NCBI GenBank assembly: GCA_026692905.1
Contig: JAPLNL010000102.1
Location: 1 to 64,000, forward strand
Reading direction: 5' to 3'
DNA length: 64,000 bases
DNA from: Planctomycetota bacterium
Lineage (GTDB): Bacteria > Planctomycetota > Planctomycetia > Pirellulales > Pirellulaceae
Shown here: piece after piece, positions 25,671-52,926 of the stretch
Layout of the letters: the number at the start of each line of letters is the position of its first letter
Position numbering within the stretch: the stretch's first letter is position 1
Program-made: the position numbers and the translations under genes
The notes under the pieces: model-generated
The model's database searches: none
Seen by the model: the letters and a program-made list of their open reading frames with translations, nothing else
Told to the model about the DNA's origin: nothing

Positions 25671-25728
25671 AGCACGATGTGCAAACTAGTGAATTGGATA
25701 GTAGGTTCACTAGCTTGCGCGTCGTGCT
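25671..25728. repeat. Palindromic repeat (AGCACGAYGYGCAA..TTCACTAGCTTGCGCGTCGTGCT), intact copy
   Basis: The left arm AGCACGATGTGCAAACTAGT (25671-25690) continues GAA; a TTGGATAGTAGG loop separates it from the right arm, which begins TTCACTAG (25706-25713) and continues CTTGCGCGTCGTGCT (25714-25728). This intact copy shows what the repeat looks like across the point where the 47.6-52.9 kb island splits another copy (TTCACTAG joined directly to CTTGCG). It lies 33 bp behind the isomerase-like gene. Confidence 0.92.
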
Positions 25729-46906: not shown

Positions 46907-47110
46907 AGTCAGCCGTAGGCGTACTTGCACTGACCAGAGTAAAGCGATTGTCCTCAATCGCTTGGCAGGCACTTTAGGTCCGTCTTGATAAAACACATGG
47001 GAAGCGAATGGGCCGTCAAGCACTTGCGATTTCGGTCATTCAGCAGAGCAAAAATTGATTACAATTGTGCGACACTGGTGCCGAGTACACCTTCGGCTGA
47101 CTGTTAAACG
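46907..47110. repeat. Separated arms of the CAGTCAACCGTAGGCGTACT palindrome family
   Basis: The left arm CAGTCAGCCGTAGGCGTACT (46907-46926) and the right arm GAGTACACCTTCGGCTGACT (47083-47102) are complementary but lie about 156 bp apart; in the intact copy at 14539-14592 the loop is 11-12 bases. The DNA between them shows no gene. It is either a long-loop version or a palindrome opened by an insertion. Confidence 0.65.
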
Positions 47111-47569: not shown

Positions 47570-47725
47570 CTAGTACGACGCGCAAGCTAGTGAATTGGAT
47601 AATTGATTCACTAGGCTGGTAAGTCCAGGGACGGGGCTTCCATTGATGGGAGCACGAGGCAGCTTGGCCATCTGAGGCATGGGTTCAGACGCGAATGGAG
47701 AGTAGAAGGGATTGACGATGTTCAT
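47570..47725 (-). pseudogene. 5' fragment of an island gene cut at the island's left edge
   Basis: An ATG at 47725 follows a strong site, GGAGG and six bases, inside the end of the upstream gene (ATGA overlap). Thirty-seven codons (MNIVNPFYSP to VPGLTS) lie in the island. From codon 38 the frame runs into the chromosomal palindrome and meets its TAG, giving a 51-residue hybrid. The good ribosome site and coupling show a real gene; the lost remainder may be the frame at 52641-52910 at the other edge, which is in the matching phase. The product is not recognised. Confidence 0.75.
47571..47614. repeat. Left part of a palindromic repeat split by the island
   Basis: TAGTACGACGCGCAAGCTAG (47571-47590) and the following bases to TTCACTAG (47607-47614) match the intact copy at 25671-25713. 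The remaining arm (CTTGCGCG...) is missing here and is found at 52911, on the far side of the island. Confidence 0.9.
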
Positions 47726-48030
47726 AACTGGCCTCCTCCGCGAATAATCGATTGATGGTGTGTTGATTCCAAGTGCTGCATTCGCTCGGCAATGGCTGCA
47801 CGCAACGGTGCTTCATAAAGATCACCGCGATAGCTATTTTCGCCGAAGGTGATGTTGCTGAGAACGAGCCGATCAAAGTCTAAGATGGCTACATGGTAAG
47901 GCGAATCGAAGACGATACCGAGTTTGTAACTCTCGGAGTCGTTGAAAAGTACGGCGTAAAACGGTGCACCGCATATTCCGTTGCGGTGATGTGCAAGATT
48001 GACGATGTTTTTGAGAAGTTGAGTGTTCAT
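47722..48030 (-). CDS. Hypothetical protein of the island
   Basis: Protein of 102 residues, soluble, with several histidines (NLAHHRNGI, STHHQS) and a central beta-like region (GIVFDSPYHVAILDFD). The start ATG at 48030 follows GGAATCACGACC. Its stop TGA overlaps the start of the cut gene at 47725, so the two were coupled. No family is recognised. Confidence 0.7.
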   Translation of the reverse strand: MNTQLLKNIVNLAHHRNGICGAPFYAVLFNDSESYKLGIVFDSPYHVAILDFDRLVLSNITFGENSYRGDLYEAPLRAAIAERMQHLESTHHQSIIRGGGQL

Positions 48031-48052
48031 GGTCGTGATTCCTTTCCGGTGA

Positions 48053-48340
48053 TTAATATTCGTTGTTGGTGTATACGTTGGTTATGTTGTTGTCGGTGAT
48101 AACAACGAGGCCTCGGTCGAACTTTCCGTATCGCGAAAGCAGTTCGCCGCCCCATTTGGCTGCAAACTCGTTCCAGTCCAATTCTTGGCCGTGGATAGTG
48201 CCCCAATCGCAGTTAGCATGGCATTGCAGAACTTCGAACAGCTCTGCGAGAGCGAATTCCTTGTTTGCACCGGCTGAGATCACTATTTGTCCCAGTTCGA
48301 CAAGCACTTCGGGTTTCGATGAATTTGATAAATTGATCAT
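48053..48340 (-). CDS. Plasmid-type protein with a CDWG motif (copy 2)
   Basis: Protein of 95 residues starting at the ATG at 48340, after AAGGAC. HANCDWGTIHGQELDWNEFA and LLSRYGKFDRGLVVITDNN align with the neighbour at 48345-48599 (NCDWG, SAYGKGDRRFWIITN). Small proteins with this pattern are known from plasmids and integrative elements (general memory, not a search). An ATG at 48376 would overlap the upstream gene. Confidence 0.72.
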   Translation of the reverse strand: MINLSNSSKPEVLVELGQIVISAGANKEFALAELFEVLQCHANCDWGTIHGQELDWNEFAAKWGGELLSRYGKFDRGLVVITDNNITNVYTNNEY

Positions 48341-48344
48341 GATG

Positions 48345-48599
48345 CTAAGTCCTTTCGCTGAGTGATAGTGTCGCATTCAAGTAGTCGTCGGGCATGAGAA
48401 CGGTTGTTCTGGAGCCATCACCATTGGTAATAATCCAGAATCGACGGTCGCCTTTGCCATAGGCAGAAAAGATGTCGAAGCCATTTTCCATTGCTTCGAA
48501 GTTCTCCTCGTACCCCTCTGGGCTAATATCGCCCCAATCGCAGTTCATGTGCCGCTTTAGCCCCGCGAAGTACACTCCGCTTGTGAGCCTGTCTTGCAC
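48345..48599 (-). CDS. Plasmid-type protein with a CDWG motif (copy 1)
   Basis: Protein of 84 residues. HMNCDWGDISPEGYEENFEA, then FDIFSAYGKGDRRFWIIT and TTVLMPDDYL, is the pattern of a small 'plasmid-related' family as I remember it. The start is a GTG at 48599 without a clear ribosome site. It is followed five bases later by its paralogue, so the pair looks like a tandem duplication. Confidence 0.72.
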   Translation of the reverse strand: MQDRLTSGVYFAGLKRHMNCDWGDISPEGYEENFEAMENGFDIFSAYGKGDRRFWIITNGDGSRTTVLMPDDYLNATLSLSERT

Positions 48600-48713
48600 G
48601 GCTTAGGATATAACGATAGTGCCAAGACGAAATGTGGAATTTGGTTTGTGTTTTATAGACATGATGTGATTCCTTTCCGATGTGGGCGGGCATCGCTGCC
48701 CGCCCGTTGGTGA

Positions 48714-48917
48714 TTAAGCGTTTTCCTCAGCTTTTGGCGGCGTGCAGACGATGCGACCGTCAAGTGGGACACAATCGAGCTGGAGGGTGAAGCCACCATC
48801 CTTGTTGCTCCAGGCGGCACCAATGCGAGTCCAGTAACTCTTGCCGTTGCCTGTTTCGCGAACATGGTGGGCATAAAGCGTTGGTTTTTTGGAAGTGCTT
48901 GTTGATTCGTTTGACAT
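48714..48917 (-). CDS. Small island protein of plasmid type
   Basis: Sixty-six residues from the ATG at 48917, which follows GAAAGGTC. The centre YAHHVRETGNGKSYWTRIG, then AAWSNKDGGFTLQLDCVPLDG, resembles a small family seen in proteobacterial mobile elements (from memory). Function is unknown. It leads the run of four small genes read leftwards. Confidence 0.7.
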   Translation of the reverse strand: MSNESTSTSKKPTLYAHHVRETGNGKSYWTRIGAAWSNKDGGFTLQLDCVPLDGRIVCTPPKAEENA

Positions 48918-49401
48918 AAAAGACCTTTCTTCATTTGGTTTTAAGGCCACAACCATTGCGGCCTTACGGCAAGCAACTCAAAGCCGCCAAGGCGTGTGCG
49001 TTTACGCATTTACTTTGCAACGCTTAAATTGGGGGCGACCTTCAGGGGGAACCGATTTAAGGGTTGCAAAGCACGACGGCGGCTTTAGCTTCGCCGTAAT
49101 GATGGCTGCATGGTGGGCCGCCTTGAGAGCACTGAAAGAACGAGGGCGATTGCATGGCGAATCACGCGGACAAAGGAACTGCGACTGCTCACTGCCGCTG
49201 GGAATTGCGACCAAGAGTTATCTAAGCATCCGCCGCTGCAATCATGAAGGCGCACCCGACCGCTTCTGAAACTGATTGACAATTGCCAGTCTGTGCCACT
49301 AAGAGCGAGGAGGGTAATCACAACCAACGAGGCGAATAGATGCAACCGACCAACTGGATAAATGCAGCAATGACGCCAAGGCAAACCACGACGAGGAATA
49401 C
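48918..49401. other. Island stretch between divergent genes
   Basis: About 480 bp between the leftward 66-residue gene and the rightward gene at 49402. Open frames here (for example 48889-49269 on the plus strand) do not look like proteins and overlap the neighbour's start. Promoters for both sides are expected but not assigned. Confidence 0.5.
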
Positions 49402-49650
49402 ATGAGCTGGAAGAATCACATAGCCGACATCGCGGTCGGAGACAAGGTGTGCTACAGCCGAACATTTTTGCAAAGCACGGGGCAGCTAACAGGCGATGTG
49501 CCGTTTGCACGTGGAATCGTAACCGCAATTGAATCGCTGGGCGAAACCAAGCTCGCGGCAATTGATTGGGACAATCCCGACATGCCACAACGAGTCAATG
49601 TGGCCAACCTTTCAAAGGTGACCCAAAAAGGCATAAGCGAACTGTCATGA
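49402..49650 (+). CDS. Small island protein, the only clear rightward gene of the island
   Basis: Eighty-two residues. The ATG follows GAGGAATAC. The text IAVGDKVCYSRTFLQSTGQL, GDVPFARGIVTAIESLGE, then IDWDNPDMPQRVNVANLSKV is protein-like and resembles a beta-barrel chromatin- or nucleic-acid-binding fold, though this is only an impression. Similar small proteins occur on plasmids of proteobacteria (from memory). Confidence 0.68.
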   Translation: MSWKNHIADIAVGDKVCYSRTFLQSTGQLTGDVPFARGIVTAIESLGETKLAAIDWDNPDMPQRVNVANLSKVTQKGISELS

Positions 49651-49849
49651 CGTCAACGGAGTTGATGCGATCTTAAAGTGGCTGTGCTTCTGCAGCAATG
49701 TTGTGTCTGTTCGCCCGAAACGATGTCGGGCGAAACATAGGCATGGATGCCACACACCGGCGCGATAGCGCCGAAAATTTTGGCGTGCAATTTTGACTGC
49801 CTGTCGGACCACAGGCAGTCGGTGCGAGTTGTCGAAAATTGCTGGGTGA

Positions 49850-50224
49850 CTAATTGTGGTCTTCGTCTTCCCTCCTCCGACATTCAGGGCAAAGCCCGAT
49901 ATGGCTAAAATTGGGGAGTTCGGTTTCTGGGTCGATTTTAATCCAGCCCTCATCAATGGCCTGCTCAAGGCTTTCGATGTCTTTGCCTGCATCGCAGTGG
50001 AAGCATTGGATGTTAACGAAAGGAAAGCGAAGCGCGGCGGGACGGCATGCGGGCCGCAAAATGCGTCCGAGAGTGTCTAGAATTGCGTTTACCTCGAAGC
50101 CTTTGGGATAGAATCCGCCCGATTCGAGCCAAGCCTTTAGGATTAGGGCGTATTCTCTCGCTCGTCCGTAATCATATTCGCGATTGGCTTCAAGGATCGT
50201 GATATAGCAGGTGGTTGGGTCCAT
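49850..50224 (-). CDS. Hypothetical island protein with paired CxxC motifs
   Basis: Protein of 124 residues. The N-terminal part (YGRAREYALILKAWLESGGF, then YPKGFEVNAILDTLGRI) is helical. The C-terminal part has CFHCDAG and GLCPECRRRE, which could hold one zinc ion. It lies 107 bp after the RadC-like gene on the same strand. No family is recognised. Confidence 0.65.
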   Translation of the reverse strand: MDPTTCYITILEANREYDYGRAREYALILKAWLESGGFYPKGFEVNAILDTLGRILRPACRPAALRFPFVNIQCFHCDAGKDIESLEQAIDEGWIKIDPETELPNFSHIGLCPECRRREDEDHN

Positions 50225-50331
50225 AGTGGTTGCCTATAGGTGGTCTGTGTTGGGTTGCATAAGAAGCCCAGCGGAATTCCGCTGGGCGATGAGAAATGGA
50301 GCCGGTTGCGTGAACTGGCTCCGGGAATGGA

Positions 50332-50763
50332 TCAGACTTTGTTCAAGTCCTGCGGAATCGATTGGGCAAAGCTGTAAAACTCTTCGCCCTCTCCGATAAT
50401 TAGGTGATCATAGAGCGGAATCCCTAGCAGCCGTCCGGCCTCGGCGAGTCGCTTGGTAACGGTTCGGTCTTCACTGCTCGGGGACACATCGCCGGACGGG
50501 TGATTGTGTCCGATGATGAGGGAAGCAACGCCATTCATGATGGCAAAGCGAAATACTTCGCGAGGATGCACTAGGCTTGCGTCTAATGTTCCCATGGTTA
50601 CAACCTCGATGTATTTCACCTTCAGTTTGGTATCTAAACCGATCGCCCAAAAATGCTCTTTGTCCTGGTCAACAATGTTTTGACCGGCGAGCCATGTTCG
50701 AAGTGCGTCAGCAACTTTCTGGTTGCTGTCCAGTTTTCCGGTGATCTTGGTCTTTACGATCAT
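50332..50763 (-). CDS. RadC-like JAB/MPN-domain protein
   Basis: A 143-residue metallo-domain protein of the RadC (UPF0758) type. The JAMM motif is GHNHPSGDVSPSSED (H86, H88, D99). The N-terminal helix-hairpin-helix part of chromosomal RadC is missing, as is usual in plasmid and phage copies. It starts eight bases after the ArdC-like gene's stop. Its biochemical role is unsettled; such genes are frequent with antirestriction genes on mobile elements. Confidence 0.9.
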   Translation of the reverse strand: MIVKTKITGKLDSNQKVADALRTWLAGQNIVDQDKEHFWAIGLDTKLKVKYIEVVTMGTLDASLVHPREVFRFAIMNGVASLIIGHNHPSGDVSPSSEDRTVTKRLAEAGRLLGIPLYDHLIIGEGEEFYSFAQSIPQDLNKV

Positions 50764-50771
50764 GGTTGCAC

Positions 50772-51743
50772 CTAGTTTCCTTCCTTGGTCGACACATCGG
50801 AAACGGCGGTATCTTTGGGCTGCAATCCGTGCATGAATTCAACAGCCTTGGACGCGTAGGAAGCGGCGGTAAAGATGGCTCGCTTGTCGTTTTTCAAGAC
50901 ATGCAGCCAGGTTGCGAGATACTCGGCGTGGTCCACTCGAAGCTCGGGTGTGATGCTCAAATCTGCACAGAGGAACGCGGAGCCAAGTTCGGCTACTAGC
51001 TCTTCCATGGCATAGCCTTCATCGCCGAATCGTTTGCGGCCTAGATCGCGATCAAGCCGTTTTGGGTGTCGGGTCCAGTGGCAAAGCTCATGGGCCATGG
51101 TAGCGGCATGGGTTTCGGAATCGCGAAACGTTTCCAAAAACGGCATGCGAACATAGTCATGGGTGATGGTGTAATAGGCCTTGTCGCCTCCTTCGCGAAT
51201 GTCGGCGTTTAGGTTCTTAAAGAACCGGTCCGCTTGTTCCACCCGTTCGATGGTCGAATTGGGTTGCTCCTTGGTTGCGTAGTAGTGTTCGGGCAAGCCT
51301 TCGCATTGCTCGGCATTGAACACGGTGTATTGCTTCAGGAACGGTATTTCTCGCTCGACTGAATCCCCTTTGTCGTCCGCTTCCGACTTCTTGAAGGTCG
51401 AAGCGTAAACAACAATGGAACCGTGTTCGCCTTTCTTGACGAATCCGCCAAGTTCTTTGGTTTGGTTGAAGGTGAGCCACAATGGGCAGGTGTAACCCTT
51501 GTCCTCTGCCTCGGCCCATAGCATCAAGATATTGATGCCTGAGTAAGGCAGGCCATTGAAGCGAAGCGGCCTTGTGATGCGTCCGGCGGCATGCTCGGCG
51601 TTCCAAGGCTTCATCCAAGGCCTTACACCTTGTTCAAGCTGTTCGATGATGCGGTTAGTCACTCGCTCGTAAACATCGATTCGAGCGGTTTTGGTTTCGG
51701 CAGTTGCTGTAGTGTTTGCAGAAGTGGTAACGGTGGTCGACAT
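50772..51743 (-). CDS. ArdC-like antirestriction protein
   Basis: Protein of 323 residues. The N-terminal ArdC part binds single-stranded DNA (VYERVTNRIIEQLEQGVRPW, PLRFNGLPYSGINILMLW, PLWLTFNQTKELGG, VKKGEHGS). The C-terminal zincin-like part has the metal motif AHELCHWTRHPKRLDR (H218, E219, H222) with a later glutamate in YAMEELVAELGSAF. Proteins of this kind protect incoming DNA from host restriction. The ATG at 51743 follows GGGGAAAGC; the frame upstream to 51902 overlaps noncoding DNA. First of the leftward island genes. Confidence 0.92.
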   Translation of the reverse strand: MSTTVTTSANTTATAETKTARIDVYERVTNRIIEQLEQGVRPWMKPWNAEHAAGRITRPLRFNGLPYSGINILMLWAEAEDKGYTCPLWLTFNQTKELGGFVKKGEHGSIVVYASTFKKSEADDKGDSVEREIPFLKQYTVFNAEQCEGLPEHYYATKEQPNSTIERVEQADRFFKNLNADIREGGDKAYYTITHDYVRMPFLETFRDSETHAATMAHELCHWTRHPKRLDRDLGRKRFGDEGYAMEELVAELGSAFLCADLSITPELRVDHAEYLATWLHVLKNDKRAIFTAASYASKAVEFMHGLQPKDTAVSDVSTKEGN

Positions 51744-52369
51744 AATAAAGCTTTCCCCAAAGTGAATGAAATGAACGTTGTTTTCGTTGCTGCTTGCTGA
51801 GAAGCAGCCCCGCTGTTTTTCAAACAGCCGGGGGGCGAATGCCAAAGGCCTAGGGGGAAGGGCAGTCAAGGCCGAGCGAATGGGGAAGGGACCCGTCTGC
51901 ACAAGCGCAGCGCGGAAGATGGGGAGGCAGCCGCATTGGCTCGCGTGGCTCCGAGCCTTGACGGCCCTGGGGTCTCCCCTGTGCTTAGGAAATCAAATGT
52001 CTTCCGCGCCCAACGAGGCACTCAATCGGGACCGCCTGAACGGCGAACTTAAGGTGTGAACGCGAATGCGTCTCACTCCGCAAGTTTTCGCCACAAACGG
52101 AAATAGGCGGGATCAGCGGAGAGTTGCAACGGGCTTTGGCGTTGCTACGAACCGCCCCGCATCCGATTTAGGCCGATGATGGATCAAGAGGCCGTAGCAC
52201 CAGCGGGAGTAGGGGGACGTGACCTAAGTCACCGAGCGAAGCAAAGCCCCGGATCACGCGGTCCGCAGGAGGTGGCCTGTTTTGCCGTGCTTGAAGGGAT
52301 ACTTGTGTCGCCTTAGAGCTCAAGCAAAGATCGAAAAACGGCAAAACAGATCCAGGACATTGATACGCG
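51744..52369. other. Noncoding island segment with a long hairpin
   Basis: About 620 bp upstream of the ArdC-like gene without a credible frame. It is richer in G and C than its surroundings. The arms CTGTTTTGCCGT (52277-52288) and ACGGCAAAACAG (52338-52349) with inner GCTTGA/TCAAGC form a stem-loop. The segment also holds GCGCGGAAGA and its inverse TCTTCCGCGC near 51911 and 52001. It could hold an origin, a transfer site or an untranslated RNA; nothing proves any of these. Confidence 0.5.
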
Positions 52370-52525
52370 TCATTCGAATTGCAACGTAGCATGTCGATCA
52401 CGCAAAATCTCTACGCGCATTCCGTGAAAGCCTTCTTTTTCCAAAACGCTGATACCATCGCGAAAAATCCGACCAGACAATTCGCCAAGCTCATTGTAAC
52501 CGCACTTCGCGAGTTCATAAGCCAT
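52370..52525 (-). CDS. Possible 51-residue island protein
   Basis: From the ATG at 52525 the frame reads MAYELAKCGYNELGELSG and on to LEKEGFHGMRVEILRDRHA. Composition is protein-like, with mixed charge and no long low-complexity runs. A GTG at 52555 would extend it by ten residues. No ribosome site is clear. It may be a small regulator or chance. Confidence 0.4.
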   Translation of the reverse strand: MAYELAKCGYNELGELSGRIFRDGISVLEKEGFHGMRVEILRDRHATLQFE

Positions 52526-52536
52526 GCTGTCAGTGG

Positions 52537-52623
52537 GCGCTTTAAAAGGGGCCACTCATGAGCGCTTCAAAAGGGGCCATTTGTTGATTTTTTGAGTGCT
52601 ACCTAAGACTTGGCCCCTTTTGA
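52537..52623. repeat. AAAAGGGGCCA repeats, two direct and one inverted
   Basis: GCGCTTTAAAAGGGGCCA (52537-52554) and GCGCTTCAAAAGGGGCCA (52562-52579) are direct copies; TGGCCCCTTTTGA (52611-52623) is inverted. Repeated short ends of this sort occur at the tips of some IS21-family elements, but no transposase is present. It lies just behind the stop of the cut frame at 52641, so it could also be a transcription end. Confidence 0.6.
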
Positions 52624-52640
52624 TGCCTTGTCTCCTGTCT

Positions 52641-52910
52641 TTATATCGGCATCGGACCCGGTGGGCGCTTTGGCCGCTTTGGGTATTCCTGCGGGTCTCG
52701 GGCTTTGATCCAATCCAAGATTTCGATCTTATGGCGAATGCGATATTGCCCTATGGAAACATCTTCGACCATTTGCAATGCGGTGATCGCAGTCACCCCT
52801 CGATCGGTGAGTTCCTTGATTAGCAACCGATTATGGATGCGCTCCGTCTTGTTGCCCTTGAGTGGTTCGTTCACAAGCTGCTTGGTTCGCTGACGCGTGA
52901 AGTGGATTAG
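52641..52910 (-). pseudogene. 3' fragment of an island gene cut at the island's right edge
   Basis: The frame is open from the island border (codon CTA at 52910-52908) to the stop at 52641, 89 codons. From the border it reads LIHFTRQRTKQLVNEPLKG, then NKTERIHNRLLIKELTDRG and a middle with ITALQMVEDVSIGQYRIRHK; it ends PKRPKRPPGPMPI. A GTG at 52874 could start a shorter version. The phase at the border is the same as that of the 5' fragment at 47725, so the two may be halves of one 126-codon gene. Function is unknown. Confidence 0.65.
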
Positions 52911-52926
52911 CTTGCGCGTCGTGCTA
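52911..52926. repeat. Right arm of the palindromic repeat split by the island
   Basis: CTTGCGCGTCGTGCTA is the missing arm of the repeat at 47571-47614; it is complementary to TAGTACGACGCGCAAG there except for one base, and identical to the arm at 25714-25729 in the intact copy. Confidence 0.9.

Follow-up and report, generated by a model that had tools for sequence, protein, structure and literature searches.

A plasmid-like DNA fragment within a REP palindrome of a Planctomycetota bacterium, at the edge of a transposon target

The island and the palindrome that it interrupts

The window examined here, a stretch of 64,000 nucleotides from a Planctomycetota bacterium of the family Pirellulaceae (assembly GCA_026692905.1, contig JAPLNL010000102.1, positions 1 to 64,000), contains an island of DNA at positions 47615-52910 that lies within a palindrome of the repetitive extragenic palindromic (REP) type, the palindrome being an inverted pair of REPs (REPIN, REP doublet forming hairpins). 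The island is bordered by TTCACTAG and CTTGCGCG, as is evident directly from the sequence. Joining of nucleotide 47614 to nucleotide 52911 restores the palindrome, as judged against an intact copy elsewhere in the window (Table 1), and TAG is the sole sequence common to both junctions. A script check revealed no Ns in the window. The island includes ArdC-like and RadC-like genes, both of which were found by Pfam, and none of the ten frames scanned matched a recombinase family; eight of the ten matched no Pfam family at all. In each of these respects a preliminary description of the sequence was borne out. The ArdC and RadC genes are intact, and their codon differences from the corresponding genes of a related genome (G024, see below) are mostly silent, with silent to replacement counts of 49:13 and 31:11, respectively. 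Additionally, a small plasmid gene that has 191 codons in G024 is divided between two frames in the island, a sign of decay.

Long matches to the island were then compared among 27 genomes of the same genus, including the genome that provides the window (G000, 5.96 Mb), and were found elsewhere only in G024 and G015. In G024 both island-like parts are located on one 33-kb contig (C79), separated by 9.8 kb, and match at 91% over 49711-52274 and at 79% over 47615-49417. The G015 matches are divided between two contigs (84% over 47616-49673 and 89% over 50818-52274). Also encoded on this G024 contig are an initiator of the RepA type, an ATPase of the ParA type, a relaxase (TrwC), a methylase and a tyrosine recombinase. 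The left end of the island falls 37 codons into a methylase-like gene, which is uninterrupted at that point in both relatives; the sequence there reads AGGCTGG in G024, the AG being common with the REP, and AGACTGG in G015. On the right side homology to G024 and G015 ends at 52274, and the island closes with a frame that is open across the junction. Relatives of this last frame were found neither in the 26 other genomes of the genus nor in a plasmid collection, and the notion that it represents the tail of a replication protein was set aside as a guess without support.

Since the left end cuts a gene that is intact in relatives and the frame at the right end is open, the island seems to be a captured piece of plasmid without ends of its own. 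Its appearance is that of an interior, mosaic portion of a plasmid-like element, as indicated by its homology to a contig with plasmid backbone genes and by its truncated left end. It does not have the features of an insertion sequence (IS) or transposon, having no transposase among the ten frames scanned, a left end that is internal to a gene and no terminal inverted repeats (TIRs) at its ends, which were read by eye. Nor does it resemble an integrative element, since it is without an integrase, is represented by one full copy in its own genome (the other matches being the IS21-type end and short pieces), and the G024 and G015 matches cross its left end.

These observations bear on the suggestion, made in the preliminary description, that the island is a site-specific mobile unit with many target sites. 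Integration by a plasmid or chromosomal recombinase, with the REP as attachment site, would account for the exact restoration of the REP and for TAG at both junctions, and a tyrosine recombinase is indeed encoded on the related G024 contig. However, both ends of the island cut reading frames, the left of which continues through the junction in relatives, and the solitary full copy is not accompanied by a recombinase, such that an origin of this kind is hardly credible. What stands of the suggestion is that the insertion is into a dispersed palindrome, and that this palindrome is a real insertion target, albeit for a different element, namely the transposon family described below.

Table 1. Coordinates of the island, its constituent features and the associated REPINs in the window
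Feature	Position	Strand	Remarks
Interrupted REPIN, left part	47572..47614	+	left arm 47572-47594, loop 47595-47606, TTCACTAG 47607-47614; orthologous palindrome in G026
Island, apparent mosaic fragment of plasmid-like element	47615..52910		
Methylase-like gene, first 37 codons, cut by left junction	47615..47725	-	243 aa in G024, weak N6_N4_Mtase match
Small gene, 102 aa	47722..48030	-	76% identical to G024 gene; no Pfam family
Two frames, jointly one 191-aa G024 gene, broken here	48053..48599	-	
Small frame, 80 aa	48714..48956	-	no family
Small frame, 82 aa	49402..49650	+	no family
Small gene, 124 aa	49850..50224	-	95% identical to G024; no family
RadC-like JAB domain protein, 143 aa	50332..50763	-	PF04002, 5.3e-38
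ArdC-like protein (ArdcN and zincin-like domain)	50772..51743	-	PF08401, PF18818
Stretch past G024/G015 homology	52275..52527		
IS21-type element end	52528..52680	+	IstB gene adjoins it in G021 (L013)
Frame open across right junction, truncated there	52681..52910	-	
Interrupted REPIN, right part	52911..52925	+	CTTGCGCGTCGTGCT; begins with 8-bp transposon target CTTGCGCG
Intact REPIN, comparison copy	25671..25728	+	

The repeat family and the transposon that targets it

The 15-nucleotide arm of the palindrome, CTTGCGCGTCGTGCT, was found 871 times (436 + 435) in the 5.96-Mb genome when up to two mismatches were permitted, compared with 13 times for the reversed control, and is therefore dispersed beyond chance, as had been supposed. 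In a 455.5-kb sample of G000, TTCACTAG (up to one mismatch) stands before 59 of the 66 arms, and many of the arms lie in inverted pairs or in tandem arrays. This sample, and a larger one of 1.17 Mb referred to below, are non-random, comprising large contigs, contigs from earlier match lists, the contig of the window and that of the transposase gene considered next. The short palindromic unit, with its high copy number, dispersal and frequent arrangement in inverted pairs, has the attributes of a REP/REPIN family. Additionally, arrays of the same REP are located on both sides of a gene for a Y1-type transposase (L065:1381-1842, contig C68), some of these arrays containing a CTGGCGCG variant. 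The match of this gene to the Pfam model is weak, its score of 23.8 bits just exceeding the cut-off (23), and its matches to the NCBIfam models for REP-associated tyrosine transposases (RAYTs) and IS200 are below the cut-offs. On the basis of its copy number, the inverted pairs and arrays, and the REP-flanked Y1 gene with its marginal match, the palindrome is classed as a REP/REPIN family and the Y1 gene as a probable RAYT. The REPIN/RAYT systems outlined in parts of two reports (PMC3733652, PMC8266576) likewise combine scattered pairs of inverted REPs with a Y1 transposase gene that has REP arrays on either side; the present system differs from them in that its RAYT is a weak family match and its REP is not placed in a published REP class. 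According to part of the first of these reports, REPs occur in Planctomycetes, and REPs with a CGTC tag were, in that study, without a dedicated transposase (PMC3733652).

The presence of a probable RAYT gene among arrays of the same REP raises the prospect that the Y1 transposase nicked the palindrome at CT (TTCAC^TAG) and that the strand was then joined to plasmid DNA. Characterised RAYTs, as far as they are covered in part of PMC8266576, do cut at CT, and a CT lies within the ambiguous TAG zone of the junction. The same source has RAYTs acting on single strands, however, and capture of kilobases of double-stranded DNA by this route is without support; together with the weak match of the gene itself, this makes the route distinctly improbable.

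Comparison with related genomes also revealed differences among the repeats. The REPIN at positions 1-180 of L212 (G000, contig C29) is orthologous to that at L110 (G026, contig C9), with the loop inverted between the two genomes. At two orthologous intergenic places where G000 has the REP (L249 and L246), G026 has other sequence (L268 and L270), that of L270 having a different palindromic look, as if the repeats turn over or replace one another at these places.

The left flank of the island was searched in the 27 genomes, and the 12 resulting loci were compared with both flanks. Within the stretch examined, the right flank was also present at one of the 12, in genome G026 (contig C419), with identities of 83.7% for the left flank and 84.2-85.7% for the right. 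This locus has the palindrome and is without the island, i.e. it is the empty site that the preliminary description had proposed looking for in relatives, and it indicates that the palindrome is older than the island. It also bears on whether the island was placed here by an assembler misled by a common repeat, and in reality belongs elsewhere. The assembly is certainly fragmented (148 contigs) and rich in the repeat (~870 arm copies), but the overlap at the junction is of only 3 nucleotides, without Ns, and the island is flanked by both halves of one REPIN at the position where G026 has that same REPIN. A chimera is accordingly very unlikely.

The right arm of the palindrome in G026 carries a miniature inverted-repeat transposable element (MITE) of 124 bp (L033:726-849), situated between CTTACGCG and CTTGCGCG. 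At least 32 near full-length copies of this MITE are present in G026 (where 32 candidates out of 120 were scored) and one in G000; it was found in two of the 27 genomes. The insertion sites of 22 of the G026 copies and the one G000 copy were examined for target and duplication. At 20 of 23 a copy of the target differed from CTTGCGCG or its complement by no more than one mismatch (the exceptions being L106, L109 and L112), and at least six of the eight bases were duplicated, likewise at 20 of 23 (the exceptions being L091, L108 and L109). Junctions between the TIR and the REP number 23 in G000 and 55 in G026, as opposed to none in the control. Longer elements with the same ends are present in G000, where they run into contig ends, and a complete relative of 1,505 bp was located in G016 (L257:123-1627, contig C446). 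The latter encodes a DDE transposase of 474 amino acids that matches Pfam DDE_Tnp_1; among NCBIfam models it comes closest to IS701 and IS4, with every match below the cut-off. With its fixed 8-bp target in the REP, target duplication and DDE transposase, the family is identified as one of REP-targeting DDE transposons and MITEs. The G016 relative lies in another repeat and has the duplication CGCGTCAG, which suggests that the family tracks each species' own repeats. In other species of the genus the family inserts into a different repeat (CCCGACGCGTCAG).

Insertion sequences that enter REPs are known (ISPsy8, ISPa11, ISPpu9/10, ISRm22 and ISRm19), and the REP is restored once the flanks are joined, as described in part of one report (PMC1525189). 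The DDE/MITE family resembles the elements covered there in entering one fixed position of the REP, with an 8-bp duplication, whereas the island, a plasmid fragment without transposase or terminal repeats and with no more than 3 bp repeated, does not. IS110/IS1111 elements, to which the preliminary description had drawn attention, also have the REP as target; however, no such transposase is present among the ten frames of the island, and the element that uses this REP is instead the DDE transposon.

Doubled targets without an insert

The 8-bp target is also encountered in doubled form without any insert, as CTAG-CTTGCGCG-CTTGCGCG-TCG. G000 has 14 such places, of which 8 are exact and 6 have one mismatch (none in the control), and two of the 14 are only 87 bp apart. 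They include C102:67278, C22:19699, C29:61152, C19:43003 and C121:43422. Among doublings of 6-13 bp within REPs of the 1.17-Mb sample, the only length observed was 8 bp, at the phase of the target, at 4 sites (reported under four adjacent phases); doublings of 4-5 bp were set aside as chance or normal sequence, this threshold being our own. Ordinary slippage was rejected as the source of the doubled 8-mers, since all of the 6-13 bp doublings are of 8 bp at the target phase. The G026 orthologue of the doubled target at C121:43422 (C8:27491) has kept the right end of such a transposon in the same arm, the left part having been lost, and because of this retained end the doubled target is probably an excision scar. 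Of the other five doubled targets compared with G026, four are without a comparable REP there and one faces a different REPIN, with another loop.

Two REP arms, at G000:C119:78753 and, in G026, at L280:12737 (contig C15), have CTTGCGCG as their very first bases, are preceded by DNA of unrelated sequence and show no transposon end. These are possibly further captures or truncations.

Origin of the insertion

The insertion point of the island falls on an edge of the 8-bp target CTTGCGCG, and a MITE occupies the same arm of the G026 orthologue. Capture of plasmid DNA within the REP is well supported by the comparisons above. As to how the capture came about, the best explanation, to which we assign a probability of about 0.42, is a break in the REP by a transposase that was repaired with plasmid DNA. 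The REPIN would have been in the chromosome already when a break arose in its right arm, and we infer that the cutter was the DDE transposase of the REP-directed transposon/MITE family, acting at CTTGCGCG, either when a MITE departed from the arm or in an abortive attack. A plasmid-like piece that was already mosaic, with its ArdC, RadC and small genes, would then have been joined into the break, its right end at the edge of the 8-bp target and its left end where 2-3 nucleotides (AG or TAG) are shared; the left copy of the target would have been lost, or never duplicated. Capture of filler DNA at breaks left by transposon excision is familiar from work on eukaryotes. The proposed logic is similar, an excision break being closed with foreign DNA with little homology, although the present case concerns a bacterium in which a Ku gene was not detected, and a break that we infer.

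A REPIN could feasibly also be broken without any transposase, if a host nuclease attacked its hairpin or cruciform and a plasmid fragment then closed the gap. The site is indeed a long perfect-to-near-perfect inverted repeat, and the junctions share just 2-3 nucleotides. The break is beside the 8-mer of the arm, however, away from the loop where a hairpin would open, and the scars in other REPs are at the transposon target; breakage of this general type is thus rather unlikely.

The agreement between break and target is in itself of limited weight, and is among several points that count against breakage by the transposase. The chance of a break matching some target edge is ~1 in 4, on the basis of four edges, four equivalent positions and ~58 positions in all. 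In the G026 sample 2 of 16 arms border an element of the family, a proportion that is probably too high since the sample was drawn from contigs in earlier match lists, such that the odds of a MITE being present in the orthologous arm are at most ~1 in 8. Both odds are rough and were calculated after the fact; they favour the transposase without proving its involvement. The island retains a single copy of the 8-mer and no TIR remnant, i.e. no direct trace of a transposon. Furthermore, where the L110 locus of G026 has a MITE, G000 (C29:1-180) has a plain, undoubled REP with the loop inverted. That L110 faces a plain REP argues against all of the G026 MITEs being ancestral; they can be recent, and the MITE at the island's site may be a later, separate insertion. 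Only one of the 14 scars, out of six compared with G026, was informative, and no doubled target was found in G026, an absence that is in part to be expected because arms are fewer there (16 in 0.37 Mb of G026 versus 178 in 1.17 Mb of G000). Other islands of this kind were not seen in the 1.17-Mb sample of G000. Finally, no match to a Ku gene was found in the genome (95.95% complete), and because of this the joining is not assigned to an end-joining route. With regard to the remaining MITE loci of G026, L107 corresponds to a REP without its right arm in G000, and the others that were compared gave no aligned REP.

Transposase-made breaks repaired by capture would, if they are general, make REP palindromes entry ports, in which a REP-specific DDE transposon repeatedly cuts its 8-bp target and leaves scars, some of the breaks capturing pieces of plasmid without Ku. 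We advance this extension tentatively, and consider it somewhat doubtful at present. If true, plasmid genes, in this instance the ArdC-RadC pair, would be fixed at a predictable chromosomal position, and confirmation would connect transposition into REPs with the acquisition of plasmid genes by non-homologous capture. That REPs serve as targets for insertion sequences, and are restored on joining of the flanks, is known already from the portion of PMC1525189 cited above. The unusual aspect is that a single 8-bp position of the REP holds, across related genomes, three different things: a MITE, a target that is doubled but empty, and a captured piece of plasmid. A word search of the titles and opening parts of abstracts in the open-access literature returned nothing on plasmid DNA captured where a transposon had left a REP, on a plasmid fragment at the edge of a REP transposon target, or on doubled-target scars in REPs. 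A genomic test is offered by the search for foreign DNA that has a junction at the edge of the REP target.

A second repeat family, which contains CGATTGTCCTCAATCG, is present to the left of the island, at positions 46934-46979 of the window. Another Y1 transposase gene of the same genome (L066, C124:58331) is likewise flanked by this second family.

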